From Balneola sp. (GTDB lineage: Bacteria > Bacteroidota > Rhodothermia > Balneolales > Balneolaceae): 64,000 nt of DNA. The notes under the pieces were generated by a model. That model was not told the origin of the DNA and ran no database searches. It saw nothing but the letters and a program-made list of their open reading frames with translations. The stretch covers positions 1-64,000 of the forward strand of contig JAEPPZ010000004.1 in assembly GCA_017640785.1 (NCBI GenBank), given 5' to 3'. Positions 1,083 through 14,832 of this stretch are shown here, piece by piece. The translations under genes and the position numbers were made by a program. Position 1 is the first letter of the stretch, and each line of letters opens with the position of its first letter.

Positions 1083-2015
1083 ATGTTGCATACAATTTTA
1101 GTAATAGATGATGACGAACCGATTCACATCATGGCAAAGAGTTTACTCGGTAAAGAATTTCAACTTGTTAATGCGAGAGACTCTCAGGAGGCTATAAATA
1201 TACTTTCTGAAACTCCGGTAAATTTAATTTTATCAGATATTCATATGCCGGGGTTATCCGGTTTAGAATTATTGGAGTCTATCAGAGATGATAAAGAAAA
1301 AAGTAAGATTCCTGTCCTTATTATGACCAACCTTCCAACTGTTGAGAAGGAACAAAAAGCATTAGACTTGGGCGCGGTTGATTTTATCAAAAAAGAGCGC
1401 TTCAATACAGATCGTGAAGGAGTTATTGAGTTAGTGAGAATGAAAATTCTAACTGATGTTAATGTAAAAGGATTGGATGAAGATCTTGAGAAAAGTAAGA
1501 ACAAGCTTGTAATGAAATTGATGGAATCAGCAATAAAAGGATCATTTATTGATACTGCTGAAACTTTTTGTTCTTACCTATCCGACATTCTAAATAGTGA
1601 TCTTTTGACTTTCTTTGTATTGGAAGACGGAAACCCTAAACCGCTTATAGTTCATGGGGATAATAAACCATCAGATGCTGATTTTGCCAGCTTTCAAAAC
1701 TCGAACTCTTTTGATCACTTAAATGCTAAAAAAGAATCTTATTTAAGCAATCATATTTATAATGAAGAATTCGGATGTTTTCTTGATTTCTCAACAAAAA
1801 ATGAAATGCCTGCAGAAATAGGTGTTCCTTTATTTTCAGCAAATGAGAAAGCAATGCTTATGAATAATCTCAGCGCTCCAACAGAATCAGAGCTTTTTGG
1901 GATGTTGATCATAAAACGATCTAAACTGTTTTCAAGTAAAGAATTCGAATTAATTTCCAGATTGGTAACACAAACGGGAGCAATACTTTGGAGGCTTTAC
2001 CAAAAGAATAAATGA
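1083..2015 (+). CDS. response regulator with C-terminal GAF-like domain
   Basis: 310 residues. The N-terminal 120 residues form a receiver domain: acidic pair Asp10/Asp11, phospho-acceptor Asp52 (LILSDIHMPGLSG), switch Thr82 and Lys103. Residues about 145-305 look like a GAF/PAS-type sensory fold with no DNA-binding helix-turn-helix or GGDEF/EAL motif, so the output is probably through protein contact or ligand binding. ATG follows the kinase stop by 2 bp, and its TGA overlaps the ATG of the next gene, so the three are co-translated. Likely the partner of the upstream kinase. Receiver assignment is firm; the GAF call rests on length and pattern only. Confidence 0.85.
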   Translation: MLHTILVIDDDEPIHIMAKSLLGKEFQLVNARDSQEAINILSETPVNLILSDIHMPGLSGLELLESIRDDKEKSKIPVLIMTNLPTVEKEQKALDLGAVDFIKKERFNTDREGVIELVRMKILTDVNVKGLDEDLEKSKNKLVMKLMESAIKGSFIDTAETFCSYLSDILNSDLLTFFVLEDGNPKPLIVHGDNKPSDADFASFQNSNSFDHLNAKKESYLSNHIYNEEFGCFLDFSTKNEMPAEIGVPLFSANEKAMLMNNLSAPTESELFGMLIIKRSKLFSSKEFELISRLVTQTGAILWRLYQKNK

Positions 2016-3199
2016 ACCTGAATAATACTTCTGTTTTACTGATAATTGAAGGAACCTATCCCTGGTATAGAGGGGGAGTGAGTGAATGGGTCTATCAATA
2101 TCTGAAAGAATTGAGTAGTTATGATTTTCATATTCTTCAGGTAGCTACAGATGAATTTAAACAGTTGGATCCTTATAACGCACTTTATCCAATTACCGAT
2201 AATGTTAAATCCTTTACTCGAGTTCCGCCTCCTACATTGAAATCTGATTGGGAAACGGCTAAAGAGACCTGGTTTCAATCTATTGTTGAATCGGTGCCTG
2301 TTTATAAATATGACACCATTCATGTGACCAATACTGGTTTTGCAGGGTGGCTTGGTATCCGTTTATCTGATATTTTTAATACTCCACTAGTTCTTACGGA
2401 ACATGCTTTATACTGGAAAGAGGTGGAAAAGGGAGCTGTGGCTCTGGAATGTGGCTATCAAATACCCGATAATTTCGAAGCAAAATCAGAAATCGTAGAT
2501 ATTTTCAAAGAAATTGCATCTGAGGTTTATTCTTCGTCAGAAGAAGTAGTATCGGTTTCAAGAGTTAATATTCCTTATCAGAAACAATTTGGAGCAGACT
2601 CACCAAAGTATATTCCTAACGGTGTTCCTGTTGATCTGTTAACTCCTGACAAGATCAGAAAAGAAACCCCGGTTATAGGATGGATTGGGAGATGTGCGGA
2701 AATGAAAAATCCTAAACTATTCTTTGAGATAGTGGAAGTGTTTCAAAGCAGATCTTTTGATGCAAGCTTTATTATGATGCTTAGCGATGCAAATGAAAAA
2801 GAGCTTGAACAGGAAGTGAGAGCATTGGCAAAAAAGTTTCCTGAAGTAACCATGATCTGGAATGAACCGGCACATCATTATCTGCATCAGTTTGATATGC
2901 TTTGCATTACCAGTCATAACGAGTCTCAGCCTTTAGTTATGTTTGAAGCACTTTCGAATAAAGCTTTGCCTATTGGCTGGGAGGTTGGAGATCTTACATC
3001 TGAATTTGGCTTTGTTGTCCCATCAGGGACTAGCACCAACACTCTGGTTGATCAGGTAAGTGCTCTTTGGGAAGACTCATCAAAATTCAATGAGTTGACA
3101 GAAAGTAAGTATGATCTGGTAGCTTATAATCATACATGGACTTCCATTTTTAAGAAGTACGACGAGCTTTTCCGGAAACTTTTAGTTGAAGATGCATAG
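2012..3199 (+). CDS. PelF-like GT4 glycosyltransferase, short paralogue
   Basis: 395 residues. The N-terminus has the DUF3492/PelF pattern EGTYPWYRGGVSEWV (residues 13-27); the C-terminal Rossmann domain carries the retaining-GT4 EX7E motif (Glu304 to Glu312, ESQPLVMFE). PelF is the cytosolic UDP-sugar-dependent polymerase of the Pel pathway; this copy is shorter than the PelF next to it (529) and than Pseudomonas PelF (about 507). It lacks the long middle insert seen in the neighbour. ATG overlaps the previous stop (ATGA), and the next gene begins 2 bp after its stop. It could be a second transferase adding a different residue or a non-catalytic partner. Soluble; no membrane segments. Confidence 0.85.
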   Translation: MNLNNTSVLLIIEGTYPWYRGGVSEWVYQYLKELSSYDFHILQVATDEFKQLDPYNALYPITDNVKSFTRVPPPTLKSDWETAKETWFQSIVESVPVYKYDTIHVTNTGFAGWLGIRLSDIFNTPLVLTEHALYWKEVEKGAVALECGYQIPDNFEAKSEIVDIFKEIASEVYSSSEEVVSVSRVNIPYQKQFGADSPKYIPNGVPVDLLTPDKIRKETPVIGWIGRCAEMKNPKLFFEIVEVFQSRSFDASFIMMLSDANEKELEQEVRALAKKFPEVTMIWNEPAHHYLHQFDMLCITSHNESQPLVMFEALSNKALPIGWEVGDLTSEFGFVVPSGTSTNTLVDQVSALWEDSSKFNELTESKYDLVAYNHTWTSIFKKYDELFRKLLVEDA

Positions 3200-3201
3200 C
3201 G

Positions 3202-4791
3202 ATGGAAGAAGTAAAACCGGTTGTATTATTTGAAACAGAGGGTTCTTATCCATTTAGTGGTGGTGGAGTAAGCACTTGGGCTCATATACTATGTACAGAA
3301 TTGCAGGAAGAAGTGGATTTTCATCTAATGGCAATTACCGGTAATCCATTTGTGGAACCTCGTTATAAACTTCCGAAGAATATCACGGATATTATCCATA
3401 TTCCGCTTTGGGGAGTTGAAGAACCGGTCCATTATTTTGATAAAACAATTCCATTCTCAGGTCAAATTGAAAAAAAAGCAAGAACTACAAAAGAAGTAGT
3501 AAAACAGCGCTTTCTTCCATTATTTAGAGATTTTATTTCATGTTTAAATGATCCATTTCAGGATGTAGACAAGATCAGTGATATCATATATGGGTTCTGG
3601 AAATTTTTTCAATATTACGATTATAAAATAACCATGAAAGAGCCTATGCTTTGGGTGGTTTTCAAGGATTCACTTATAGAAAAGTATGTTGAAAATTATG
3701 ATCCTGAGCTAGGAGATACGCCAAAAGTGATTGATATGACTTTTGGTATGAGATGGTTGTACCATTTTTTAATGCCGATTGCGTCTCCGATACCGAAAGA
3801 AGTTAATATTTCTCATTCTACTTTAGCAGGCTTTCCGGCTTTAGCTTCTATAGCAGCAAAGTATGAATATGGTATTCCCAGTATGGTAACGGATCATGGA
3901 GTGTATATGCGTGAACGTCTTATCAATGTTGGCCGGTCTGATATGACTTTCTTTTCCAAAAAAATGCTTGTAGATCTCTCTACAATGATAACAAGAGCTG
4001 TTTATCATACTGCTGATCAGATTTCTCCTGTTACTACGGCAAATCAAAAATGGGAAGAACGCTTTGAAGCCAAACCCGAGAATATTTTGCCGATTTATAA
4101 TGGTGTGGATACAGATCTGTTTAAACCTACGCCAAAACCTACTAAGACTGAAGGTACGCCAACGGTAATAGCTGTGGCACAGGTTTTTCCACTAAAAGAT
4201 ATCGAGACTATGATCCGAACTTGTGCAGTAGTACGGAAAACAATTCCAAATGTACAGTTTACAGTATATGGCAGTTTGGATGTGGATACAGATTATGTTG
4301 AAACATGCAGAGAACTTATCAAAGAGCTTGATCTGGAGGAAAATTTTACGTTTGGAGGTTTTCATAACAATCCAAGTATGATCTTTAATGAAGGGGATAT
4401 CTCAATTTTAACATCGATATCTGAAGGGTTTCCATACACCGTAATTGAATCAATGAGTTGTGGCCGACCTGTAGTTGCTACTGACGTAGGAGGAATAAAA
4501 GATGCTTTAGAAGGCTGTGGAATTCTTTGTAAACCGCGTTCTCCGGAAGAAATTGCAGAGGGTGTAGTTAAGTTATTGGAAGATACAGACTTGAGAATTG
4601 AACTAGGAAATAAATCTCGTGAAAAAGTACTTCTTAATTTTACTACAGACAGATCAGTTAAAAATTATCTAGAGTCTTATAAACAATTGGCCGCTAAGCC
4701 AAGAGTGCCTTTAAAAGAGAAAGTGAAAACAGAGTCAGTATTAAACCTGCTTGAATATTTAAGGGTTAAGAGGTTGGCTCATGCAAACTGA
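3202..4791 (+). CDS. pelF: PelF-type polysaccharide polymerase
   Basis: 529 residues, the expected PelF length. The DUF3492 N-terminal domain opens with ETEGSYPFSGGGVSTWAH (residues 10-27), followed by a GT4 domain with the EX7E motif at Glu408-Glu416 (EGFPYTVIE) and the downstream SCGRPVVATDVGG. In characterised Pel systems PelF is the cytoplasmic glycosyltransferase that builds the amino-sugar-rich chain and works with the PelG membrane complex. The gene overlaps pelG by 11 bp, which supports that pairing. Substrate (UDP-GalNAc/GlcNAc in Pseudomonas) is inferred by family, not seen. Confidence 0.92.
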   Translation: MEEVKPVVLFETEGSYPFSGGGVSTWAHILCTELQEEVDFHLMAITGNPFVEPRYKLPKNITDIIHIPLWGVEEPVHYFDKTIPFSGQIEKKARTTKEVVKQRFLPLFRDFISCLNDPFQDVDKISDIIYGFWKFFQYYDYKITMKEPMLWVVFKDSLIEKYVENYDPELGDTPKVIDMTFGMRWLYHFLMPIASPIPKEVNISHSTLAGFPALASIAAKYEYGIPSMVTDHGVYMRERLINVGRSDMTFFSKKMLVDLSTMITRAVYHTADQISPVTTANQKWEERFEAKPENILPIYNGVDTDLFKPTPKPTKTEGTPTVIAVAQVFPLKDIETMIRTCAVVRKTIPNVQFTVYGSLDVDTDYVETCRELIKELDLEENFTFGGFHNNPSMIFNEGDISILTSISEGFPYTVIESMSCGRPVVATDVGGIKDALEGCGILCKPRSPEEIAEGVVKLLEDTDLRIELGNKSREKVLLNFTTDRSVKNYLESYKQLAAKPRVPLKEKVKTESVLNLLEYLRVKRLAHAN

Positions 4792-6409
4792 AGGAAGAGA
4801 TATTATTTTTGAAAAGGAAAATCTGTCAGTTATTGAAGAATTGACTCAGCAGGTTTATGATCTGATCGGAAATCCATTAAGTGTTTGGGCAGTGGCAGCT
4901 ACCATTGAGTCGTTAGGGGTAAGAGATGTCGACGCAAATACTGATTATGGATTTAAAAGTGTTTTTGATTTAGCAGAAGAAGTATATAAAAAGCTTAAAA
5001 AGCATATTAAGGGCAAGTATGAAGAAGAAAGTGAATCAGAGTTTAAACTCGGTGATGTAGGAGAAAGTTTTAAACTCTTCTTCAAGCATTTTGGTATGGG
5101 TGTGCTTTTTACAATGCCGATGATTTCTCAGATTGTAGCAATCATTATTTTTGAATATGCGCTTTGGGCATGGTTTAGGTTTAATGTAGCTCAAGCAACT
5201 ATGATAGCAATGGGGACCATAGGCGCATTCATCATTACCGGTGGTTTTATTCAGGTGCTAGGAAGGCTTGTTTCAAAATATATGGGGGAAACTAATTACT
5301 ATTTAAGCTGGAAAGCTATTAAAGCAGTTATGTATTTTGCCATTCCTCTTGTTCTGGGAATTGCCGCTCTCGTTTTTATAGTAAATGTAATTCTTCCTTT
5401 TTATCCTCAAAGAATGGTAACAATAGGGCTTACCTATTTTATTCTGATCTCAAGTATGATGCTTTCAGCGGCTGTTTTATATGCTTCTCAACAAAAACTG
5501 ATCATTCTAGGCAGTATTTTAGTCGGAACATTGGCAGTAGCTTTTGGAATGGAAGTACTTGATTGGGGGATTTATCTATCACAATGGTTAGGAATCGGAA
5601 TAACTACTGGATCTCAGATTATTTACATAATAATTTATTATCAGTATAAGATAAGGTCTAATCGACAGCGCCTCTTTAAACAATCTTTACCAAACCTTGA
5701 AGTGAGCTACTATAACACTTACAGATACTTCTTGTATGGATTCGGGTATTTTACTTTTCTGTTTGTAGACAGAATTTTGGCTTGGTCTGCCGGACCGCCG
5801 CCACCGCCGTATATCATTTGGTTCAACACTCCCTATGAACTGGGAATGGACTGGGCATTATTGAGCTTTATATTTACAATAGCATTACTGGAATTTATAA
5901 TTCATTTATTTTCACACAGAATAATACCTGCTCAAAAGAAAACAGAAATTGATAAGCTTAAAAGATTCAATTTATACTTTAGCAGTTTTTATTCATTACA
6001 GTTAGTGCTACTCTTTTTTGTTGGGATTCTCTCCATAGTATTGACTTATTACGGAGTAGAAGCTTTAAGAGTTTTTGAAGATGATTACCCGGAAATAAGA
6101 GACTTCTTTGCAAACCCGATAACCTTTAAGGTTTTTTGGATGGGAAGCATTGGTTATTTGTTTTTGGTTTTTGGACTACTTAATTCGCTATTCTTTTTTA
6201 CAATGAATAGGCCGGAATTTGTACTTTATTCTATGCTCGCTGCACTAGCAGTTAATGCACTAACAGGCTATATATGTAGCAGAGTAATAGGATTTGAATA
6301 TGCTGTAGTAGGTTTAATTGCAGGCTCTATTACATTTGCAGCAGTTACCGGATTAATCGGTAAAAGATTTTTTAAACATTTGGACTATTTTTATTACTCT
6401 GCATACTAA
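4781..6409 (+). CDS. pelG: PelG-like polysaccharide transporter with N-terminal extension
   Basis: 542 residues with about twelve hydrophobic segments from residue 105 onward, as in PelG/Wzx-type MOP-superfamily exporters. The first roughly 100 residues are hydrophilic (ending in a Glu/Ser-rich stretch before KHFGMGVLFTMPMI), making this protein noticeably longer than Pseudomonas PelG (about 456). The proline-rich loop GPPPPPYI near residue 340 faces the membrane surface. Overlap of 11 bp with pelF and 9 bp gap to the next gene put it in the operon. Role inferred: moving the growing polymer across the inner membrane with PelF. The extension may replace contacts made by PelD/PelE elsewhere. 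Confidence 0.88.
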   Translation: MQTEGRDIIFEKENLSVIEELTQQVYDLIGNPLSVWAVAATIESLGVRDVDANTDYGFKSVFDLAEEVYKKLKKHIKGKYEEESESEFKLGDVGESFKLFFKHFGMGVLFTMPMISQIVAIIIFEYALWAWFRFNVAQATMIAMGTIGAFIITGGFIQVLGRLVSKYMGETNYYLSWKAIKAVMYFAIPLVLGIAALVFIVNVILPFYPQRMVTIGLTYFILISSMMLSAAVLYASQQKLIILGSILVGTLAVAFGMEVLDWGIYLSQWLGIGITTGSQIIYIIIYYQYKIRSNRQRLFKQSLPNLEVSYYNTYRYFLYGFGYFTFLFVDRILAWSAGPPPPPYIIWFNTPYELGMDWALLSFIFTIALLEFIIHLFSHRIIPAQKKTEIDKLKRFNLYFSSFYSLQLVLLFFVGILSIVLTYYGVEALRVFEDDYPEIRDFFANPITFKVFWMGSIGYLFLVFGLLNSLFFFTMNRPEFVLYSMLAALAVNALTGYICSRVIGFEYAVVGLIAGSITFAAVTGLIGKRFFKHLDYFYYSAY

Positions 6410-6418
6410 GGACATCCT

Positions 6419-8041
6419 ATGAGTAAAGACGTAAAAGACTATATAAATATAATAGGAAGCAGGCTTGGAAAAGCCTTTGCGATAGATTCGTTTGGAACTG
6501 AAGAAGAGCTGGAGTTTTGGGCTCTTTCAGCAGAACATATGTCTCGTAAGGAAAACCCTACTTTTCAGAATATAATTACCTGGATAGATTTGTTGTACCA
6601 GGCTCCGGTGCACTTTGTTTATAAACTGGAAAAAGAGCACTTAATACTTATTAAACGGCAATTGATTTCAGAAAATCTACTTCCTGAAAAATCCGGAGGT
6701 GGAAAGCCAGGGAAGGTAGACTCTCAAAGAACTCAGTTTATTCAGGATTTTGAAAATCAAATGCAGAATCTTGAGAAAAAGAGACAATGGGATGAAGACT
6801 TTAAAGAACATGGAGTTTCAGCTCATACAATAGGAAATTGTGAACATATCCCACTCTACAAAAAGAACGGAGACTTTTGGGGGATATATGTAATAGGGCC
6901 AAATATTAAGAGCCCGGAAAATATGGTCCCTAAATTTTCAATTGTAAGCAGATTATTGTCTTCTTGGCTAATTAAGTTAGATGAGCAGGAAAAAGAGTCT
7001 CAAAAAGAGTATCAAGACAAAGTTCATGGATTAGTTAGAGAACTTGGGACTGGAGCGTTAAATACAAAGGGGATTTCCGAGCTCTTACTTTTATATATAA
7101 TAAATTCCTTGCAGGCTAAATCCGGTGCAGTTGTTGAATATAAAGATGGCGCTCCGGTACTTATCGCTTCAAATAATCTTGATGAGCAATATCTGAAAAC
7201 ACTTCTCGGACTATCGGGTGATAAAATGTATGATCTTACTGAAAATGGATTCAGTATTTCAGAAGCAGGAAAAGAGATCGTAAATAAGCTGGAAGTTGAG
7301 CCTTTGTTTTTGCCTTATATTTCTGATGAAGTAAAAGGCTTTATTTGGATAAACAGAAGTGAATTAAATGAGAATAAAGATTCAAATCCTGTATTAAGCG
7401 ATATTTCTGTTATTGTGGCAAAGCTTTTTGAATTCAGAGATGTTAATAAAAGCTTCTCAGATGATTTGCTTGACGCATTTTATAAAATGTTGCGAGCAAT
7501 TGAGATGAAAAGAGAGAAAACTAAATATCATTCGCCAAGAATGATCGCTTTTGTTGAAATGTTCGGAATGCTTTTTGGCCTAGATAGTAATGAAATGGAC
7601 ATCATTAAAACTACAGCAAAATTACATGATATAGGATATGTAGGTGCTGCAGGAATAAGTTCCTTGGCGAGTATAGGCTCTGAACTGGCTCACCCTATTG
7701 CCGGAGCAACTATGATAAGCAACCTGCCTGTTCATAATGATATCATTGAAGGTATTAAAACTCATCATGAATGGGTTAATGGGAAAGGTACTCCTAATGA
7801 GATCAGAGGGGAAGATATTCCATGGACGGGTAAGATCATATCTGTGTTTGAATTTGTGGTAGACTTCTTCGAATCAAATCCTGATGTAGCTCCTGAAAAA
7901 GAAGAAGAAATGTTGGAGAAGTTGAAATCCAACTTAATAGAGCGCGCAGATATTCAATTTGATATGGTATTAATTCCTACAGTTATACAACAACTAACAA
8001 TGCTTGGTTGGTCAGGTTGTGCGGAATTGGGAGTTGAATAA
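6419..8041 (+). CDS. GAF-like and HD-domain protein, degenerate HD-GYP
   Basis: 540 residues, no membrane segment. Residues about 200-345 resemble a GAF domain; residues 350-520 form an HD-type phosphohydrolase with His371, His403-Asp404 (KLHDIGYVG), His425 and His449-His450 (THHEWVNGKGTP). Compared with canonical HD-GYP (HDIGK; HHExxDGxGYP; VxDxxD), the Lys is Tyr, GYP is GTP and a late Asp is Glu478. Metal binding looks possible, classical cyclic-di-GMP phosphodiesterase activity is uncertain. Pel systems are normally gated by cyclic-di-GMP bound to PelD (GAF plus degenerate GGDEF); no PelD is present here, so this cytosolic protein is a candidate replacement sensor. It lies 9 bp after pelG and 9 bp before the hydrolase gene. 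Confidence 0.8.
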   Translation: MSKDVKDYINIIGSRLGKAFAIDSFGTEEELEFWALSAEHMSRKENPTFQNIITWIDLLYQAPVHFVYKLEKEHLILIKRQLISENLLPEKSGGGKPGKVDSQRTQFIQDFENQMQNLEKKRQWDEDFKEHGVSAHTIGNCEHIPLYKKNGDFWGIYVIGPNIKSPENMVPKFSIVSRLLSSWLIKLDEQEKESQKEYQDKVHGLVRELGTGALNTKGISELLLLYIINSLQAKSGAVVEYKDGAPVLIASNNLDEQYLKTLLGLSGDKMYDLTENGFSISEAGKEIVNKLEVEPLFLPYISDEVKGFIWINRSELNENKDSNPVLSDISVIVAKLFEFRDVNKSFSDDLLDAFYKMLRAIEMKREKTKYHSPRMIAFVEMFGMLFGLDSNEMDIIKTTAKLHDIGYVGAAGISSLASIGSELAHPIAGATMISNLPVHNDIIEGIKTHHEWVNGKGTPNEIRGEDIPWTGKIISVFEFVVDFFESNPDVAPEKEEEMLEKLKSNLIERADIQFDMVLIPTVIQQLTMLGWSGCAELGVE

Positions 8042-8050
8042 GTTTCGTTA

Positions 8051-8905
8051 ATGCATAATAAGTTACCACTGATAATTATCTATTTGCTCACTGTAAATTG
8101 TATATCGTCCAGTAACAAGCTGTCAGAAGATCCCATCTATGACTCCTTTGGAGTAGTATATTCTGATATTAATCCTTCTGTGGTGTCGGGTTATAAACTT
8201 TTGATAGTAGAGCCATATTTTTACACCAAGCAAGAAATAGCTGAATTTAATTCAAGAGGAATAAAGGTTGTAGCCTATCTTTCTTTGGGAGAAGTAAATG
8301 AATCACGTAGATACTTCAGTGAGTTTAAAGAGATTGGTTTAATAGGAAAAAATGAAAATCATGGCTCTTACTTTATAAACCTTTCAGAGCCTAGCATAAA
8401 AGAAAAATTTGTTAATGAAATTGTCCCGGAATTGCTTTCATATGGCTATGATGGTCTTTTTCTTGACACCATTGACGCTGTAGCGCCATATACGCTTAGA
8501 AGAAATATGGAACAGGATATGGTTGATCTGATATCCGCTATAAGATCACGTAATCCTGATAAGTTGTTAATTCAAAATGCAGGATTATTTCTCTTGGATA
8601 AAACAGCTGCTCATATTGATGCTGTGACGGTTGAAGCTGTAGCTTCGGGTTATGATTTCGATAAAAATGAATATCAAATCAAATCGGTAAAAGAGTATGA
8701 AGAAAGGCTTGAATTCATAGATTCTTTACATGATACCTACAAAGTTCCGTTTTTGATCATAGATTTTGCTGAGAATTACGGTAACTCTCTACTTATAAAA
8801 AACAGATTAGAAGAATCTGGTCATCCTTTTTTTATCAGTAATATTGAATTTAGAGGTTTACCTGTCGTGACCGGTAGATCTAAATCATTAAAGAAGGGAG
8901 CTTAA
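8051..8905 (+). CDS. GH114-type endo-alpha-1,4-polygalactosaminidase lipoprotein (PelA hydrolase-like)
   Basis: 284 residues. The N-terminus is a lipoprotein signal with Cys17 (LTVNC). The body matches the GH114/TM1410 barrel: VEPYFYT, KVVAYLSLGEVNESR (72-86), YDGLFLDTIDAV (133-144) and AVTVEAVASGYDF with Glu195 as a candidate catalytic acid by analogy with the PelA hydrolase domain. In PelA this domain trims or releases Pel. Here it is a separate membrane-anchored protein rather than the N-terminal half of PelA, while the deacetylase-like half is in the large gene downstream. It is separated from its neighbours by 9 bp and 1 bp. Confidence 0.85.
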   Translation: MHNKLPLIIIYLLTVNCISSSNKLSEDPIYDSFGVVYSDINPSVVSGYKLLIVEPYFYTKQEIAEFNSRGIKVVAYLSLGEVNESRRYFSEFKEIGLIGKNENHGSYFINLSEPSIKEKFVNEIVPELLSYGYDGLFLDTIDAVAPYTLRRNMEQDMVDLISAIRSRNPDKLLIQNAGLFLLDKTAAHIDAVTVEAVASGYDFDKNEYQIKSVKEYEERLEFIDSLHDTYKVPFLIIDFAENYGNSLLIKNRLEESGHPFFISNIEFRGLPVVTGRSKSLKKGA

Positions 8906-8906
8906 T

Positions 8907-10967
8907 ATGCCATATTGGTTGATTGTGTTTCTTTCTATTGCCCGACTTGTACTCTTTTTTGTGATCCTGTTTTCATGGATAGGCCCAAAATTCCTTCCTC
9001 ATACCAAAAAGTTACATGGAATTGATAAGATGCTATATAGCTGGATCGGAATTGGGGGGACTATTATTCTCACAATCTTCATTCTTACGATCCTTCATTT
9101 ATATGATTTGATAAGTTTATTTGTTGTTTTGATTATGATCCCGATCCTTATTTCTCTTTTCAAAGAATGGAGAAGTGGTACATCTCTTGGATCTATTTTT
9201 AAAGTAATAGAGAATAAAATAGTAGCTAATCAAGTAAGGGTTATTGAATCTATAAAAGTATTCACCTATCAGGGATTAAAAGATAGATTTTCTGACAAAG
9301 GTGAATTTTCAATTTATGATAATAGATATAATATTGCCGCAGTTGTTATAGGTATAATTTCTTGCGTTGTCCGTGTTATTCCTGTTTTAAAGAACGCAGC
9401 ACCGTACAGCAGAGCGTGGTATTTCGAACTTGATGAAGTCAAAAATATCAGACTACAGCAATATTTCGGTGAGCTACCAATACCTAAAGGGATGCATTCT
9501 TTGGTAGGAATGTTTAGTAACCTTACACAAGTAGGACCGGAGCTTACCTTAAGCTTGCTTGGTAGCTTAACCAGTTTTCTTTTGACCATTATCATATTTT
9601 GGCTGATTCGGGAAATAACAAAAGGTAAGCGATTAACAGCTGCATTATTCGGGGCCAGTATCTTTGCTCTCATTCCGACATTATTATTACCTATAAGTCT
9701 TGAAGCTGAAACCGGTATTAATACAATTTTACTGGCGCTTTGTTTTGCTTTGCCAACAGCTTTTATTTTTGTAAGGAACCTCAGGTCGGTTGATAAGGCT
9801 CCATGGTTTTATGTAACTATGGGAATTATTGCTACAGCACTCACAGATATATTTGTTCTTTTAGTAGTGTTATTACCTTTTTTGATATATGGTTTATTAG
9901 CGATTCCTAGAAAGAGGTTTGGTATTAATTTGCTTAAAGTAGTTGCTTACTTGGTTATTGTTTTTACAGTTTCCTTAAGTCCTTATTTCATTCATTTAAT
10001 AACAATGGGACTAGATATTAATTCATTTTTTGGGTCACAGCTTTTAGACACTCTTATATTCAGCTATTTTCCATTCTTAATTACAGATATAGAAGCTCTG
10101 AGTTCGATATACCTTTATATAACCGGGGGCTTATTTATTATCTTTTTGATTCTTCATTTCGTTCAAAAAAAGAAACGTTTTGCAGATGAATTGGTCTATT
10201 TTGCAATGTTCGGATCCATGGCTTTTCTGTATTCCACTCATAATAATCTAGGTATATCATTTATTGATTTAGATCAACTCAATGCTTTTTATGCAATTCT
10301 GATTTCTGTTCTATGTGGATTGGTCTTTTATGCTATATATACATTAATAGAAGTAGTTATAAATATAAATCATCGTTTCGTCAGCTACAGCCAACCAATA
10401 CTAATGGTATTATTAGTGTCAGGAGGATTATTCCTTGCCGGTGGAGTAAATACAGGAAAAACATTGCCACAAACACTACCAAATGGCTTTTTTGAATCTT
10501 ACTACAAAATAATCAATGAAAGGCTTCCTTTTACTTATGCTACAGTAAGTCCACCCATTGATAATGCATTGTCTAAGAACAGGCATTACTTTATGAATTA
10601 TGATTTTTTTCTTGGAAGCTATGGGAACATTGATTCACTGTATCAGGAGTATCTTGAACTTCCCAAAGAGCTCAGACCTGATACCGCAAATATTCCTCCT
10701 GCAAGTATATTCGTTTTTATACAAAAACCGCCTTATGAGTCTATACAGCAAGGAATATTGTTTGAACCGGGCGAACAGATGCAAGCTTTAAGTGATTGGA
10801 TTTCTAAATATAGTTCATTACCCGGTAGAGAAGTTTTCATATATAATGAAACAGAGGATGCGGTTGTCTATGAGATAATCAATCAGAAAGAAGGATCTAA
10901 CATAGGTGATATTTTAATGAATATTTATCCAAAAGAGGAAGGGCGTGCAGCTAAGCTATTTAAATAA
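8907..10967 (+). CDS. large polytopic membrane protein of the EPS operon, GT-C-like
   Basis: 686 residues. About twelve or more hydrophobic helices in residues 1-550, and a soluble C-terminal tail of about 135 residues. A loop after an early helix reads RAWYFELDEVKNIR (about 168-181), an acidic-rich first extracytoplasmic loop as seen in GT-C glycosyltransferases, but I find no family-defining motif. An AAGGGAG ribosome-binding site precedes ATG. It lies between the GH114 lipoprotein and the DUF2194/barrel gene and overlaps the latter by 23 bp. Possible roles are a membrane glycosyltransferase, a modification enzyme, or a structural stand-in for PelD/PelE membrane parts. Function not recognised. 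Confidence 0.72.
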   Translation: MPYWLIVFLSIARLVLFFVILFSWIGPKFLPHTKKLHGIDKMLYSWIGIGGTIILTIFILTILHLYDLISLFVVLIMIPILISLFKEWRSGTSLGSIFKVIENKIVANQVRVIESIKVFTYQGLKDRFSDKGEFSIYDNRYNIAAVVIGIISCVVRVIPVLKNAAPYSRAWYFELDEVKNIRLQQYFGELPIPKGMHSLVGMFSNLTQVGPELTLSLLGSLTSFLLTIIIFWLIREITKGKRLTAALFGASIFALIPTLLLPISLEAETGINTILLALCFALPTAFIFVRNLRSVDKAPWFYVTMGIIATALTDIFVLLVVLLPFLIYGLLAIPRKRFGINLLKVVAYLVIVFTVSLSPYFIHLITMGLDINSFFGSQLLDTLIFSYFPFLITDIEALSSIYLYITGGLFIIFLILHFVQKKKRFADELVYFAMFGSMAFLYSTHNNLGISFIDLDQLNAFYAILISVLCGLVFYAIYTLIEVVININHRFVSYSQPILMVLLVSGGLFLAGGVNTGKTLPQTLPNGFFESYYKIINERLPFTYATVSPPIDNALSKNRHYFMNYDFFLGSYGNIDSLYQEYLELPKELRPDTANIPPASIFVFIQKPPYESIQQGILFEPGEQMQALSDWISKYSSLPGREVFIYNETEDAVVYEIINQKEGSNIGDILMNIYPKEEGRAAKLFK

Positions 10968-13900
10968 ATACTTACTTAGTTCATTACTGTTTTTTGTTTT
11001 AATGGTTTTAAATAAACCGTTAAATGCACAAAACGAAATAGCTCCAATTTTAATTCTTCAGAGTACGTCTGATGAATTTTCAGTTGAAGTTACCAACGAG
11101 TTGATTGAAGCATTTAAATATCCCGAGTTTAAGTATGAAATTATAGATCTGGATAAATCCAAAAATATTCCAATAGATAAAAATACCAACCTTCTTATCA
11201 ATACCAGCTCGAATATAACTTCAATAGATGATAAAGAGTTAAACAAGGTTATAGACTATTTGGGAAAAGGGGGCAAAATGATCTTTTTTGGTACTGTAAC
11301 AGATGAGAGATTTGCATATATACAAGGGATCAAGGCCGGAGCTGATTACACCATTGATCAGACAGTTCGCGGAATTAAAGGAGTTGAAAATATATTCCCG
11401 GGTTATAAAGGGATGGAATTTTATTCAAATTTCAGTGTTCCTCATAACCGCTTAAAGAAGAGTAGTTTTATCGATCAAATCAGACTGCTGGCAACAGCTG
11501 TAACCGACGAAGATTATCCTATTCTTTTTGAGAATAATATTGGTCTTGGTACAGTATTGGTATTTAACAGTTATGTTCTGTATGAAAAGGATTACAGAGG
11601 CTTAATGTTTTCGTCGGTAATTAAAATGTTGCCACATTTACCTTACAGAAATGCAAATGTGGGTACTATTTTTCTGGATGACTTTCCGGCTCCACTATAT
11701 AATACTAAGTTAGAGCCTATTGCTACAGAATACGATGTAGAGCAAGCAGACTTTGTCGCAAATATTTGGTGGCCGGATATGCAAAAACTTGCTGATTCTT
11801 TGCTTATCACATATTCTGCTATGACGGCGTTTAATTATAATGCTAATATAGTACCTCCATTCGATTACATAGAGTGGACATCTGCAACAATCAGAAGAAA
11901 GAACAGGCTCATTAATGCAAGTGTTTATCTGGCACAGGATATAGCAGAATCCAGGCATGAATTAGCATTTCATGGTTATAACCATTTTTCTTTATTGAAT
12001 GAAGAATGGGATTCGAATTCATCTTTCATGGAATCGGCATTAAACTCGGTAAAAAAGAGATGGAGAGTTGATGATCTTGGACCACTTCCGATAACTTATG
12101 TTCCTCCAACGAACTTTATAGATTCAACTGGGATACAGGCTTTAACAAGAGCAATGCCTTCTATAAAAGTACTTAGTTCTTTATATCTGGGAGAAAAAGA
12201 GTATGGTGGAGACAGAGGCTTTGGTCCCGACCCGTATTCAGATAAATTATTTAATTATCCAAGAATATCCAGTGGGTTTAATATAGATGGAAACTCAGTT
12301 TTTAATCAGCATAGTATGCAGTTACTCACCGGGGTATGGAATCATTTTGTTCACCCTGATGATGTATTTCAAGTTGTACAGCGAGATGCTGATGCATTTG
12401 AAAGTAGAAACCCTGATAATCTCGGATGGAGATCTACTCCGGATACTACCACTTCACTGTATAAGGAGTTTCTTAAAAGATTAAGCCACACAAAAAAACA
12501 GTATCCCTTTTTGCGTTTGGTTTCTGCAGACTATGGAGCAAATATAGCTCAGGATTGGTTGAATGCAGATTCTGAATATCTGGAAACGGATGATCAGTAT
12601 CTCGTAAATGTAACACCACCTGATACTTATAAATCTTCAAGTGCGGACAAAGACGAAAAATATTGGTTTATGTATGTACCAAGGGAAGATCGCGCTGATA
12701 TTGAGAAACATTTAAGTAAGATCATAGACGGATATACTTTTTCCAGATTTTGGGATGGGTACCTTTTCCAATTTTATTCGAAGAAAAACCTGATAAATAT
12801 TCCTAAGCCAAAGTCGAATGAAAGAACTTCCAGGGAGCAGGAATCAGGTTTAGCATTGGCAAAGAATAGATTTAATACTTACCTCACAAATCCTTTTTAT
12901 TTAGCCGCTTCCTCTGTTGCCGTTGAACCAGAAATTACCTTTGAACAACAGCTTTCGGATGCGATAAACAGATATTTACGAAATCCTAAAAGTGTTCAGG
13001 CTCAGGAAGAATTAATTGAACTTAGCATTGAAAATGATGAAGCTATGCGTGCTATTCAAATTCTTGAGTTCAGGTTAAAGTCTAGCCCTGACTGGCAAAA
13101 GAGTGACATAGACCGACTAGTTACTTACTATGGATTTGAAAGCGCTTATACAAGAGCTGAGAACTTTCTGGAAGAGCTTTGGAGAAAATATGGTGATGAG
13201 AAGGTTATTCTTTTAAAAAACAGAATAGCTGAACAACTTGGTTTGTACTCACCTGAATTTGTAAAGAGATGGAGACTTAGAGAAATTGAAGTTTATGGTG
13301 AAACCAATGAAACCGTTCTTGCTTATGTAAATGCTGTTGAAAGTGTTGAAACCTGGCCGGAGATAAAACAAAGGCTAAGGAGTCTGATAAATAACGATCC
13401 GCGAAATGATAGCTTGTACGCATATACAATTCAGAGATCATTTTATTATGAAGCGGCAGATAGTACTATTGCATTACTGGAAGAGTTTCCTGAATGGTCT
13501 CATAGCCAGTTAAATGAATTTGCAGGGCAGTTTGCTAATATATATGGTTATCAGCTATTTGATTACGATAAAGCTTTGTATTGGGCAGAACGATCGGATA
13601 GTATTTCAAACCGAACTAAATTAGAATGGATAGCTCAACAAAATGAACTGGATCAATTCTATGCCATCACTAAGGATTATTTACAGAATAATCCCGGCAA
13701 CGATTCCTTAAGAGTTTTTGCAGGTACAACTCTCTATTATCTTGGCTTTAAAGAAAGAGGATATGAAATCATGTATCCTTTATTCGGTAAAGGAAAGAGT
13801 ACGGACACCGAAGCTCATCAATTAATCGAAGAAGAGTTTAAGTTTATCACTTATAAGGACAAGAAGAATCTTTTCAGAAGATATCCGAACTTCTTTTCAG

Positions 13901-14832
13901 AGAAAGAAGAAGAGATATTTAAAACTGATTTACGATGGAATGAAGGAGTGAGAGCATCTTTGTTCGGTGAATACTTCTCTGACAATTTTGATAATCAATC
14001 TGCCAGAGGGGGCTTGTCGGTACAATTTGGAAACAGACTGGATAAATCTCACTTATTTAAATTGGAAGATATTTATGTAAATGACAGAGTTGGGAATCAA
14101 AATTTCTTTTCAAACTTTACAGGCATTGGATATGAATTCGAAAACAGAAAAGAAGACTATAGCCGTGTATTTAGATTTGGTCCATCTGTATTTTATGGAG
14201 AGGAAGGAATTTTAGCAGAAGCGTTTGTTTCCTACTCGATAAGCTATGATTCTACATTTACAGCACTCAATTTGTCGATTGAACCTGAGTTTACCCGCCA
14301 GGCAATTGTTCAGGATATCTATAAATTGAAGGGCGAATTCTATAGAGAAGATCCATGGTTAAAAAATAAATTTCTGACAACGGTGTCCGGATCGGGGCAG
14401 GTTTATACAAATGAAGTATTCGATTATTCTATAACAGGGAGGGGATACCTTCAGCCTTGGGGCACTGCTTTCAGAGGAAGATTGATTGGTGAGTTAGGTT
14501 GGCAGGATGCTTCAAAAAAATTCCCGAATGCAGAACCATTTTTTACTCAGGATAATTATTTACTAAAAGGTTTAGGCTTTGATTTGAGATATCGAAACCC
14601 TAATGATTTTAGCTATGATTCATTATTTGAACTGGAACTAATGGGAAAACATGCTTCAAGTGATGGATATTTTTTAACCGGACGAGCAAACGTAGAACAT
14701 AAATTCAAAAAGTTCTGGCAAATAAAAGTGGGTACTGAGTTTTCAACAAGTTCAGTTTATCAGTCAAACAGAATATTTTTTACCATTTCTCACTTTTTTA
14801 AATACAAACTAAAACGTCCCGAACAAAAATAA
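10945..14832 (+). CDS. DUF2194 deacetylase-like, helical-repeat and outer-membrane beta-barrel fusion (PelA/PelB-like)
   Basis: 1295 residues from a GTG at 10945 behind AGAGGAAGGG, overlapping the previous gene by 23 bp. Residues 1-28 are a signal peptide ending LNAQ. Residues about 30-620 match DUF2194, with carbohydrate-esterase-4-like elements: FLDDFP (Asp245/Asp246), AFHGYNH (His343, His347, spaced HxxxH) and YVPPTN (385-390). Residues about 670-985 are Glu-rich amphipathic helices like TPRs (for example YDKALYWAERSDSI). Residues about 990-1295 alternate polar/aromatic as an outer-membrane barrel and end in FFTISHFFKYKL. Pseudomonas PelA deacetylates Pel and binds PelB, whose TPRs lead to a C-terminal porin barrel; here both functions appear in a single chain. 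A frame break is excluded because the ORF is continuous. Confidence 0.83.
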   Translation: MQLSYLNKYLLSSLLFFVLMVLNKPLNAQNEIAPILILQSTSDEFSVEVTNELIEAFKYPEFKYEIIDLDKSKNIPIDKNTNLLINTSSNITSIDDKELNKVIDYLGKGGKMIFFGTVTDERFAYIQGIKAGADYTIDQTVRGIKGVENIFPGYKGMEFYSNFSVPHNRLKKSSFIDQIRLLATAVTDEDYPILFENNIGLGTVLVFNSYVLYEKDYRGLMFSSVIKMLPHLPYRNANVGTIFLDDFPAPLYNTKLEPIATEYDVEQADFVANIWWPDMQKLADSLLITYSAMTAFNYNANIVPPFDYIEWTSATIRRKNRLINASVYLAQDIAESRHELAFHGYNHFSLLNEEWDSNSSFMESALNSVKKRWRVDDLGPLPITYVPPTNFIDSTGIQALTRAMPSIKVLSSLYLGEKEYGGDRGFGPDPYSDKLFNYPRISSGFNIDGNSVFNQHSMQLLTGVWNHFVHPDDVFQVVQRDADAFESRNPDNLGWRSTPDTTTSLYKEFLKRLSHTKKQYPFLRLVSADYGANIAQDWLNADSEYLETDDQYLVNVTPPDTYKSSSADKDEKYWFMYVPREDRADIEKHLSKIIDGYTFSRFWDGYLFQFYSKKNLINIPKPKSNERTSREQESGLALAKNRFNTYLTNPFYLAASSVAVEPEITFEQQLSDAINRYLRNPKSVQAQEELIELSIENDEAMRAIQILEFRLKSSPDWQKSDIDRLVTYYGFESAYTRAENFLEELWRKYGDEKVILLKNRIAEQLGLYSPEFVKRWRLREIEVYGETNETVLAYVNAVESVETWPEIKQRLRSLINNDPRNDSLYAYTIQRSFYYEAADSTIALLEEFPEWSHSQLNEFAGQFANIYGYQLFDYDKALYWAERSDSISNRTKLEWIAQQNELDQFYAITKDYLQNNPGNDSLRVFAGTTLYYLGFKERGYEIMYPLFGKGKSTDTEAHQLIEEEFKFITYKDKKNLFRRYPNFFSEKEEEIFKTDLRWNEGVRASLFGEYFSDNFDNQSARGGLSVQFGNRLDKSHLFKLEDIYVNDRVGNQNFFSNFTGIGYEFENRKEDYSRVFRFGPSVFYGEEGILAEAFVSYSISYDSTFTALNLSIEPEFTRQAIVQDIYKLKGEFYREDPWLKNKFLTTVSGSGQVYTNEVFDYSITGRGYLQPWGTAFRGRLIGELGWQDASKKFPNAEPFFTQDNYLLKGLGFDLRYRNPNDFSYDSLFELELMGKHASSDGYFLTGRANVEHKFKKFWQIKVGTEFSTSSVYQSNRIFFTISHFFKYKLKRPEQK

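Follow-up and report, generated by a model that had tools for sequence, protein, structure and literature searches.

Modification of the Pel polymer and its export are best known from Pseudomonas, where their coupling is an open question: how PelA comes together with PelB is known from models only, and why a ring of PelC is required is unexplained (PMC12022489, PMC12141448). In Bacillus cereus, the protein PelADA (PDB: 9ZAU) de-N-acetylates alpha-1,4-linked N-acetylgalactosamine (GalNAc) oligomers and is the founding member of the families CBM114 and CE26 (PMC13254593). An earlier survey of pel loci used PelC as its query and was therefore limited to PelC-containing systems (PMC7112168). A later hidden Markov model survey does not name the Bacteroidota in its main text; the enzyme-pore fusion reported there, which joins the hydrolase BcsZ to the pore BcsC in Zymomonas, is a precedent for such joining (PMC7112194). 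Here we describe a gene of Balneola sp. that encodes, in one chain, a PelADA-like deacetylase, a helical arm and a predicted outer-membrane barrel, within a pel-type operon. It lies in the first 64 kb of contig JAEPPZ010000004.1 (hereafter the window), from an assembly of 3.39 Mb that is 99.7 percent complete. We found no description of this deacetylase-arm-pore architecture in the open-access literature, subscription papers being outside the search; the fusion thus appears to be undescribed, though ordinary for its phylum.

Architecture, family and distribution of the fusion protein

The fusion gene is a single open reading frame with a GTG start that codes for 1295 residues, at the position given in the original prediction; its first 23 bases are shared with the preceding gene (Table 1). 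That prediction, made from the letters alone, had seen in it a CE4-like deacetylase, a TPR-like region and a barrel of PelB size, and had interpreted the whole as a PelA-PelB fusion. As the same single frame is kept in relatives, we rejected a frameshift, an assembly error or chance read-through as its source.

The head of the protein is covered by the Pfam family DUF2194 (residues 25-557, E 3.7e-72), and its only strong match among solved structures is 9ZAU (phmmer E 3.8e-41). A profile built from 20 relatives matched the CBM114 and CE26 domains of this structure with an E of 8e-73 across residues 32-568. We carried the catalytic residues of PelADA onto the fusion through the 9ZAU alignment, taking their roles from PMC13254593, and found the set (D262, D263, HxxxH, P405, R458, H488 and D491) to be complete, as D245, D246, H343, H347, P388, R440, H470 and D473. 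These eight and N390 are invariant in all 77 of 77 fusions. The aspartate pair, the HxxxH and the PPxN motif (MT3; here PPTN, residues 387-390) are thus as first described and cannot be put down to chance, but the family is not CE4: the CE4 profile Polysacc_deac_1 (PF01522) gave no match to the protein among those listed at E values up to 10, and the relation to CE4 is one of fold, seen in structural matches to 3rxz (Z 16.0) and 3qbu (Z 15.7). Likewise, hhalign detected no similarity between the fusion family and one proteobacterial PelA, that of Pseudoalteromonas (probability 0.2 percent). The invariance of the mapped residues and the match to PelADA together place the predicted enzyme in CE26, the Gram-positive type of Pel deacetylase, and neither in CE4 nor in the CE21 of Pseudomonas PelA. 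A second site in the genome with the DNA pattern for DDFPAP proved unrelated and lies beside a glucose-6-phosphate isomerase-like gene.

Examination of an AlphaFold2 model of residues 225-1295, built from 58 sequences (mean predicted local distance difference test score, pLDDT, 87.9; predicted template-modelling score, pTM, 0.47), revealed all three parts that had been anticipated, namely a deacetylase barrel, a superhelix and a 16-stranded membrane barrel. The deacetylase domain at 234-525 takes in most of the stretch of 230-400 for which such a fold had been proposed, and is followed by a beta-sandwich (542-620), in the same order as in PelADA. After a disordered linker (648-665), whose pLDDT is under 50 and whose length varies among relatives, come about 22 helices that as a set span 631-1000, and then 16 strands at 1003-1284, within the predicted barrel region of 990-1295. 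Independently of modelling, this layout is backed by a distant full-length relative (L033, 22 percent identical). Its TPRs, at 691-1051, are clear Pfam matches, and it alone touches the PgaA_barrel family, weakly, at 1153-1283 (E 0.0064, below the cut-off of that family).

Structural comparison of the barrel with VIA-align gave BcsC (6tzk; Z 23.9, root mean square deviation 3.0, 277 residues aligned), PgaA (4y25; Z 23.4, 3.6, 272) and PelB (9h80; Z 22.3, 3.8, 270) as about equal matches; by both Foldseek and VIA these three stand well above other barrels, the best of which is CymA (VIA-align Z 16.2). PelB has a helix, Plug-I, between strands 7 and 8 (PMC12141448), and a short helix stands at this position in our model. 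The family PF24604 (B-barrel_PelB_C) matched neither the fusion protein, nor anything in its genome or in 296 genomes of the phylum; both proteobacterial plasmid records used as a control were matched. When profiles of the fusion and of proteobacterial PelB and PelA were compared directly, nothing was found either. Given the equal fit to BcsC, PgaA and PelB and the lack of a PF24604 match, the term 'PelA-PelB fusion' describes function and layout, and orthology to PelB is not established. What stands of it is a deacetylase, a TPR-like arm and an exporter barrel in one chain within a pel-type operon; what falls is the PelA type of the enzyme (CE26 instead of CE21), the PF24604 barrel and the hydrolase half of PelA, which is encoded separately. 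The accompanying proposal, that a modification enzyme is fixed next to the exit pore, holds in that the two are physically joined in a single chain.

Across the phylum, DUF2194 scored above its cut-off in 24 of the 296 genomes. Long matches that include the deacetylase domain account for 23 of these, all in frames of 1268-1349 codons, and the remaining one is weak, partial and in an unrelated frame; weak matches in other Bacteroidota were set aside, as they covered little of the profile. The one-chain arrangement is therefore not peculiar to the Balneola genome but standard across the phylum. Its hosts are marine and freshwater Bacteroidota of the Balneolaceae, Roseivirga and the Flavobacteriaceae, with one distant member; named genomes include Balneola, Fodinibius, Gracilimonas, Roseivirga, Flavobacterium, Maribacter, Salegentibacter and Mesonia, among others, and the closest named relatives, also from Balneola, are 95-96 percent identical over the fusion protein. 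Relatives were taken from a genome scan (the best 80 of 132 loci) with search patterns that favour fusions over unfused CE26 proteins. Most of them have a lipobox at the signal-peptide site, whereas the Balneola copy has an ordinary cleavable-type signal peptide. Fodinibius sediminis encodes a second, divergent copy (L071, 9983-14743) with about 250 extra residues past the barrel and a SPOR-like stretch at its end. The region ahead of the fusion in L033 (8962-12898) codes for a SpoIIE phosphatase, for one protein with a receiver domain and another of the GAF-HD kind, and for a small protein similar to an anti-sigma-factor antagonist.

The operon around the fusion gene

In the window pelF and pelG lie side by side, as in a pel operon, and wherever the contig of a relative reaches far enough the neighbours of the fusion comprise pelF, pelG, the gene for a PelA-type hydrolase and that for a membrane protein of 650-700 residues. 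Most of the PelG members score under the PelG cut-off. Among solved structures PelA is the best match to the hydrolase (Table 1), and the functions of PelA are therefore split: the hydrolase is encoded alone, two genes upstream, and only the deacetylase half has been joined to a pore.

The membrane protein, which has 686 residues in the window, matched no Pfam family. Its model (pTM 0.87) retrieved structures of the GT-C type in every one of the top 44 rows (Z about 21 for STT3-type proteins, against 5.6 for the next unrelated structure). The gene is present in every complete operon with the fusion and has no counterpart among the pel operons described in the open literature that we searched. 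GT-C enzymes usually have an acidic residue in their first outer loop; as this residue is not invariant in the family, the protein may act as an enzyme or serve as a scaffold.

No gene for a PelD-type cyclic di-GMP receptor with a degenerate GGDEF domain is present in the operon, nor is there a candidate in the flavobacterial five-gene core. An HD-GYP-like protein is encoded at the place expected of PelD in Balneolaceae-type operons; the window copy has GTP instead of the GYP signature, and the flavobacterial five-gene operons have no such protein. Likewise, no PelC-like lipoprotein gene was seen in the operon, and a single PelC query of the genome, run without a positive control in the phylum, was empty. 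Upstream of pelF on the same strand lies a second, shorter PelF-like glycosyltransferase (2012-3199), which scores just under the PelF cut-off and occurs mainly in Balneolaceae-type operons; the operon head (103-2015, also on this strand) codes for a histidine kinase and response regulator, as in nearly all Balneolaceae relatives.

Table 1. Coordinates in the window of the operon genes and of the parts of the fusion protein
Feature	Position	Strand	Basis
PelF, glycosyltransferase	3202..4791	+	NF038011, 150.7 bits (cut-off 100)
PelG, divergent transporter	4781..6409	+	PF16933 matched by 7 of 16 aligned orthologues, best 4.7e-11
HD-GYP-like regulator	6419..8041	+	profile search
PelA-type glycoside hydrolase (GH114/GH166-like), lipoprotein-like N terminus	8051..8905	+	best PDB matches are PelA: full-length 9cgy 8e-29, hydrolase domain 5tcb 9e-28
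GT-C-fold membrane protein of the conserved core	8907..10967	+	model, structure comparison
Fusion gene (signal peptide, CBM114-like, CE26 deacetylase, beta-sandwich, TPR-like helices, 16-stranded barrel)	10945..14832	+	single open frame, also in relatives
Signal peptide, residues 1-28	10945..11028	+	VQLSYLNKYLLSSLLFFVLMVLNKPLNA followed by QN; Sec type in Balneola
CBM114-like alpha/beta/alpha domain, residues about 32-232	11038..11640	+	profile match of 32-568 to 9ZAU; by sequence only
CE26 deacetylase domain, residues 234-525	11644..12519	+	alignment and profile to 9ZAU, AlphaFold model, fold matches
MT1, D245 (base) and D246 (metal), D262/D263 of PelADA	11677..11682	+	alignment; PMC13254593
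MT2, HxxxH, H343 and H347 (metal)	11971..11985	+	sequence, conservation
PPTN, residues 387-390	12103..12114	+	sequence, conservation
R440, base-coordinating R458 of PelADA	12262..12264	+	alignment, conservation
MT5, H470 (acid) and D473, H488 and D491 of PelADA	12352..12363	+	alignment, conservation
Beta-sandwich domain, residues 542-620, as in PelADA	12568..12804	+	model; PMC13254593
Low-confidence linker, residues 648-665	12886..12939	+	pLDDT under 50
TPR-like helical solenoid, residues 667-1000 (first helix at 631)	12943..13944	+	model; profile matches to TPR structures; TPRs in relative L033
16-stranded outer-membrane barrel, residues 1003-1284	13951..14796	+	model, structure comparison
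Short helix between strands 7 and 8, residues 1118-1122, at the PelB Plug-I position	14296..14310	+	model

A proposed one-piece route for polymer modification and export

These observations suggest that the fusion is probably a one-piece machine that modifies and exports a Pel-like polymer of partly de-N-acetylated GalNAc in a cell with two membranes. By analogy with PelADA and PelBC, from which we infer the polymer, the activity of the enzyme and the path of the chain, PelF would synthesize the polymer in the cytoplasm, and its passage across the inner membrane would fall to PelG, possibly together with the GT-C-fold protein. The CBM-CE26 head would then bind the polymer in the periplasm and take off acetyl groups; the cationic chain would then run along the helical solenoid into the barrel, whose outer loops may gate the exit, and the separate lipoprotein-like hydrolase would trim the polymer. 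Every step after PelG would thus be carried by a single chain, the N terminus of which would also be lipid-anchored in most relatives. With head, arm and pore in one chain, docking of PelA onto PelB would not be needed, and the PelC ring perhaps not either.

Several points weigh against this interpretation. The GalNAc-binding residues of the PelADA CBM are kept in part, E115 being lost, W147 replaced by F and D231 by E in the 9ZAU alignment. The pore does not tell the polymer, given the tie among BcsC, PgaA and PelB and the missing PF24604 match, and the conserved GT-C-fold gene may mean that the polymer is modified or different. The placement of the head relative to the arm is uncertain at the pTM of the model, and the open literature searched yields no experiment on any member of the fusion family. 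Most of these points would fit a machine of the same one-piece kind that handles another amino-sugar polymer, either resembling poly-N-acetylglucosamine (PNAG) or a decorated N-acetylhexosamine chain, with the GT-C-fold protein adding a sugar from a polyprenyl donor or lipid-linking the chain in the periplasm. The strength of the GT-C fold assignment, the presence of that gene in every complete operon and the divergence of PelG, most of whose members fall below the cut-off, point the same way. However, PelF scores above its NCBIfam cut-off, the adjacent hydrolase is closest to PelA among solved structures, the nearest deacetylase has demonstrated activity on alpha-1,4-GalNAc, and the GT-C-fold protein, its acidic residue not being invariant, may be a scaffold; a different polymer is hence an alternative that we regard as unlikely, if one to be taken seriously.

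The remaining alternatives concern the protein itself. The chain could be made as one and then cut in the disordered linker (residues 640-666), the deacetylase and exporter acting as two proteins much as in Pseudomonas, and the low pLDDT and variable length of the linker would allow it. However, we noticed no processing signal in the sequence, and the single frame is kept by every full-length relative in the phylum sample, a constancy that a mere precursor would not require; such cleavage seems very improbable. We give even less credence to a CE26 head that is enzymatically dead and binds the polymer for hand-over to the pore, as the 77 of 77 relatives, which come from several families, all keep the base, the metal ligands, the acid and the supporting residues unchanged.

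Under the one-piece interpretation, the natural fusion sets the stoichiometry of modification and export and restricts their geometry, and the path from active site to pore is therefore open to study in one protein. As the fusion apparently does without PelC, it also offers a direct test of the purpose of PelC. Further, it points to production of Pel-like biofilm polymers across a large group of environmental bacteria, which surveys started from PelC would have missed. A bolder proposal, which we put forward as speculation and consider unlikely as a whole, is that the Pel-type system of the Bacteroidota is of a third kind. In it, deacetylase, guide and pore would form one protein that is independent of PelC, is doubly anchored by an N-terminal lipid and a C-terminal barrel, and originated by the joining of a Gram-positive-type deacetylase to an outer-membrane exporter; its partner would be a GT-C enzyme acting on the polymer in the periplasm, either to modify it or to link it to a lipid.

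Relationship to known systems

In comparison with Pseudomonas PelA and PelB, the fusion shares a deacetylase, a TPR arm, a barrel of 16 strands in which a short helix separates strands 7 and 8, and a hydrolase encoded nearby. However, in Pseudomonas PelA and PelB are separate proteins that bind each other, the deacetylase is of the CE21 type and joined to the hydrolase, and the barrel is of the PF24604 type and needs a PelC ring, none of which was found for the fusion. Two proteobacterial pel records likewise lack DUF2194 and have a PelB with PF24604. PgaA and BcsC have a very similar barrel fold behind a helical arm, but the PgaB/PgaA and BcsZ/BcsC pairs involve other enzymes and operons, and PgaB, the PNAG deacetylase, is a separate protein of the CE4 family.

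The fusobacterial pel operons of Cetobacterium and Fusobacterium (L139 and L140) resemble the Balneola operon in combining CE26, pelF, pelG and a PelA-type hydrolase in a cell with two membranes, but their CE26 proteins are unfused, with 609 and 621 residues and an N-terminal helix. Directly after pelG these operons code for a secreted, beta-rich protein of 305-316 residues without a Pfam family (L139 18040-18957, L140 18340-19290), which is possibly the unfused pore of that system. The fusobacterial PelG proteins (L139 15939-18050, L140 16021-18339) have a long C-terminal tail, in which a lipobox-like segment precedes many repeats of the YDxxGY/NxxGxN type. In Deinococcus and Thermus plasmids (L143 15793-20358, L144 7909-9999), proteins encoded near pelF contain CBM87 and Agd3-type deacetylase domains, of a kind known from the fungal enzyme for galactosaminogalactan. 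The large hypothetical protein beside pelF in Thermus was considered as a counterpart of the GT-C-fold protein and rejected, as it showed no similarity to it and is an Agd3-like deacetylase.

The closest relative remains PelADA, which has in common with the fusion the deacetylase family over residues 32-568, the catalytic residues, the beta-sandwich and a pel operon with pelF and pelG. PelADA, with 610 residues, stops after the sandwich and is thought to dock on PelG, held by an N-terminal cytoplasmic-membrane helix that is a feature of PelADA and not of its CAZy family. The fusion has a signal peptide in place of this helix, and adds the arm and an outer-membrane pore. One reading of this difference is that joining to an exporter adapted a Gram-positive-type CE26 deacetylase to a cell with two membranes.

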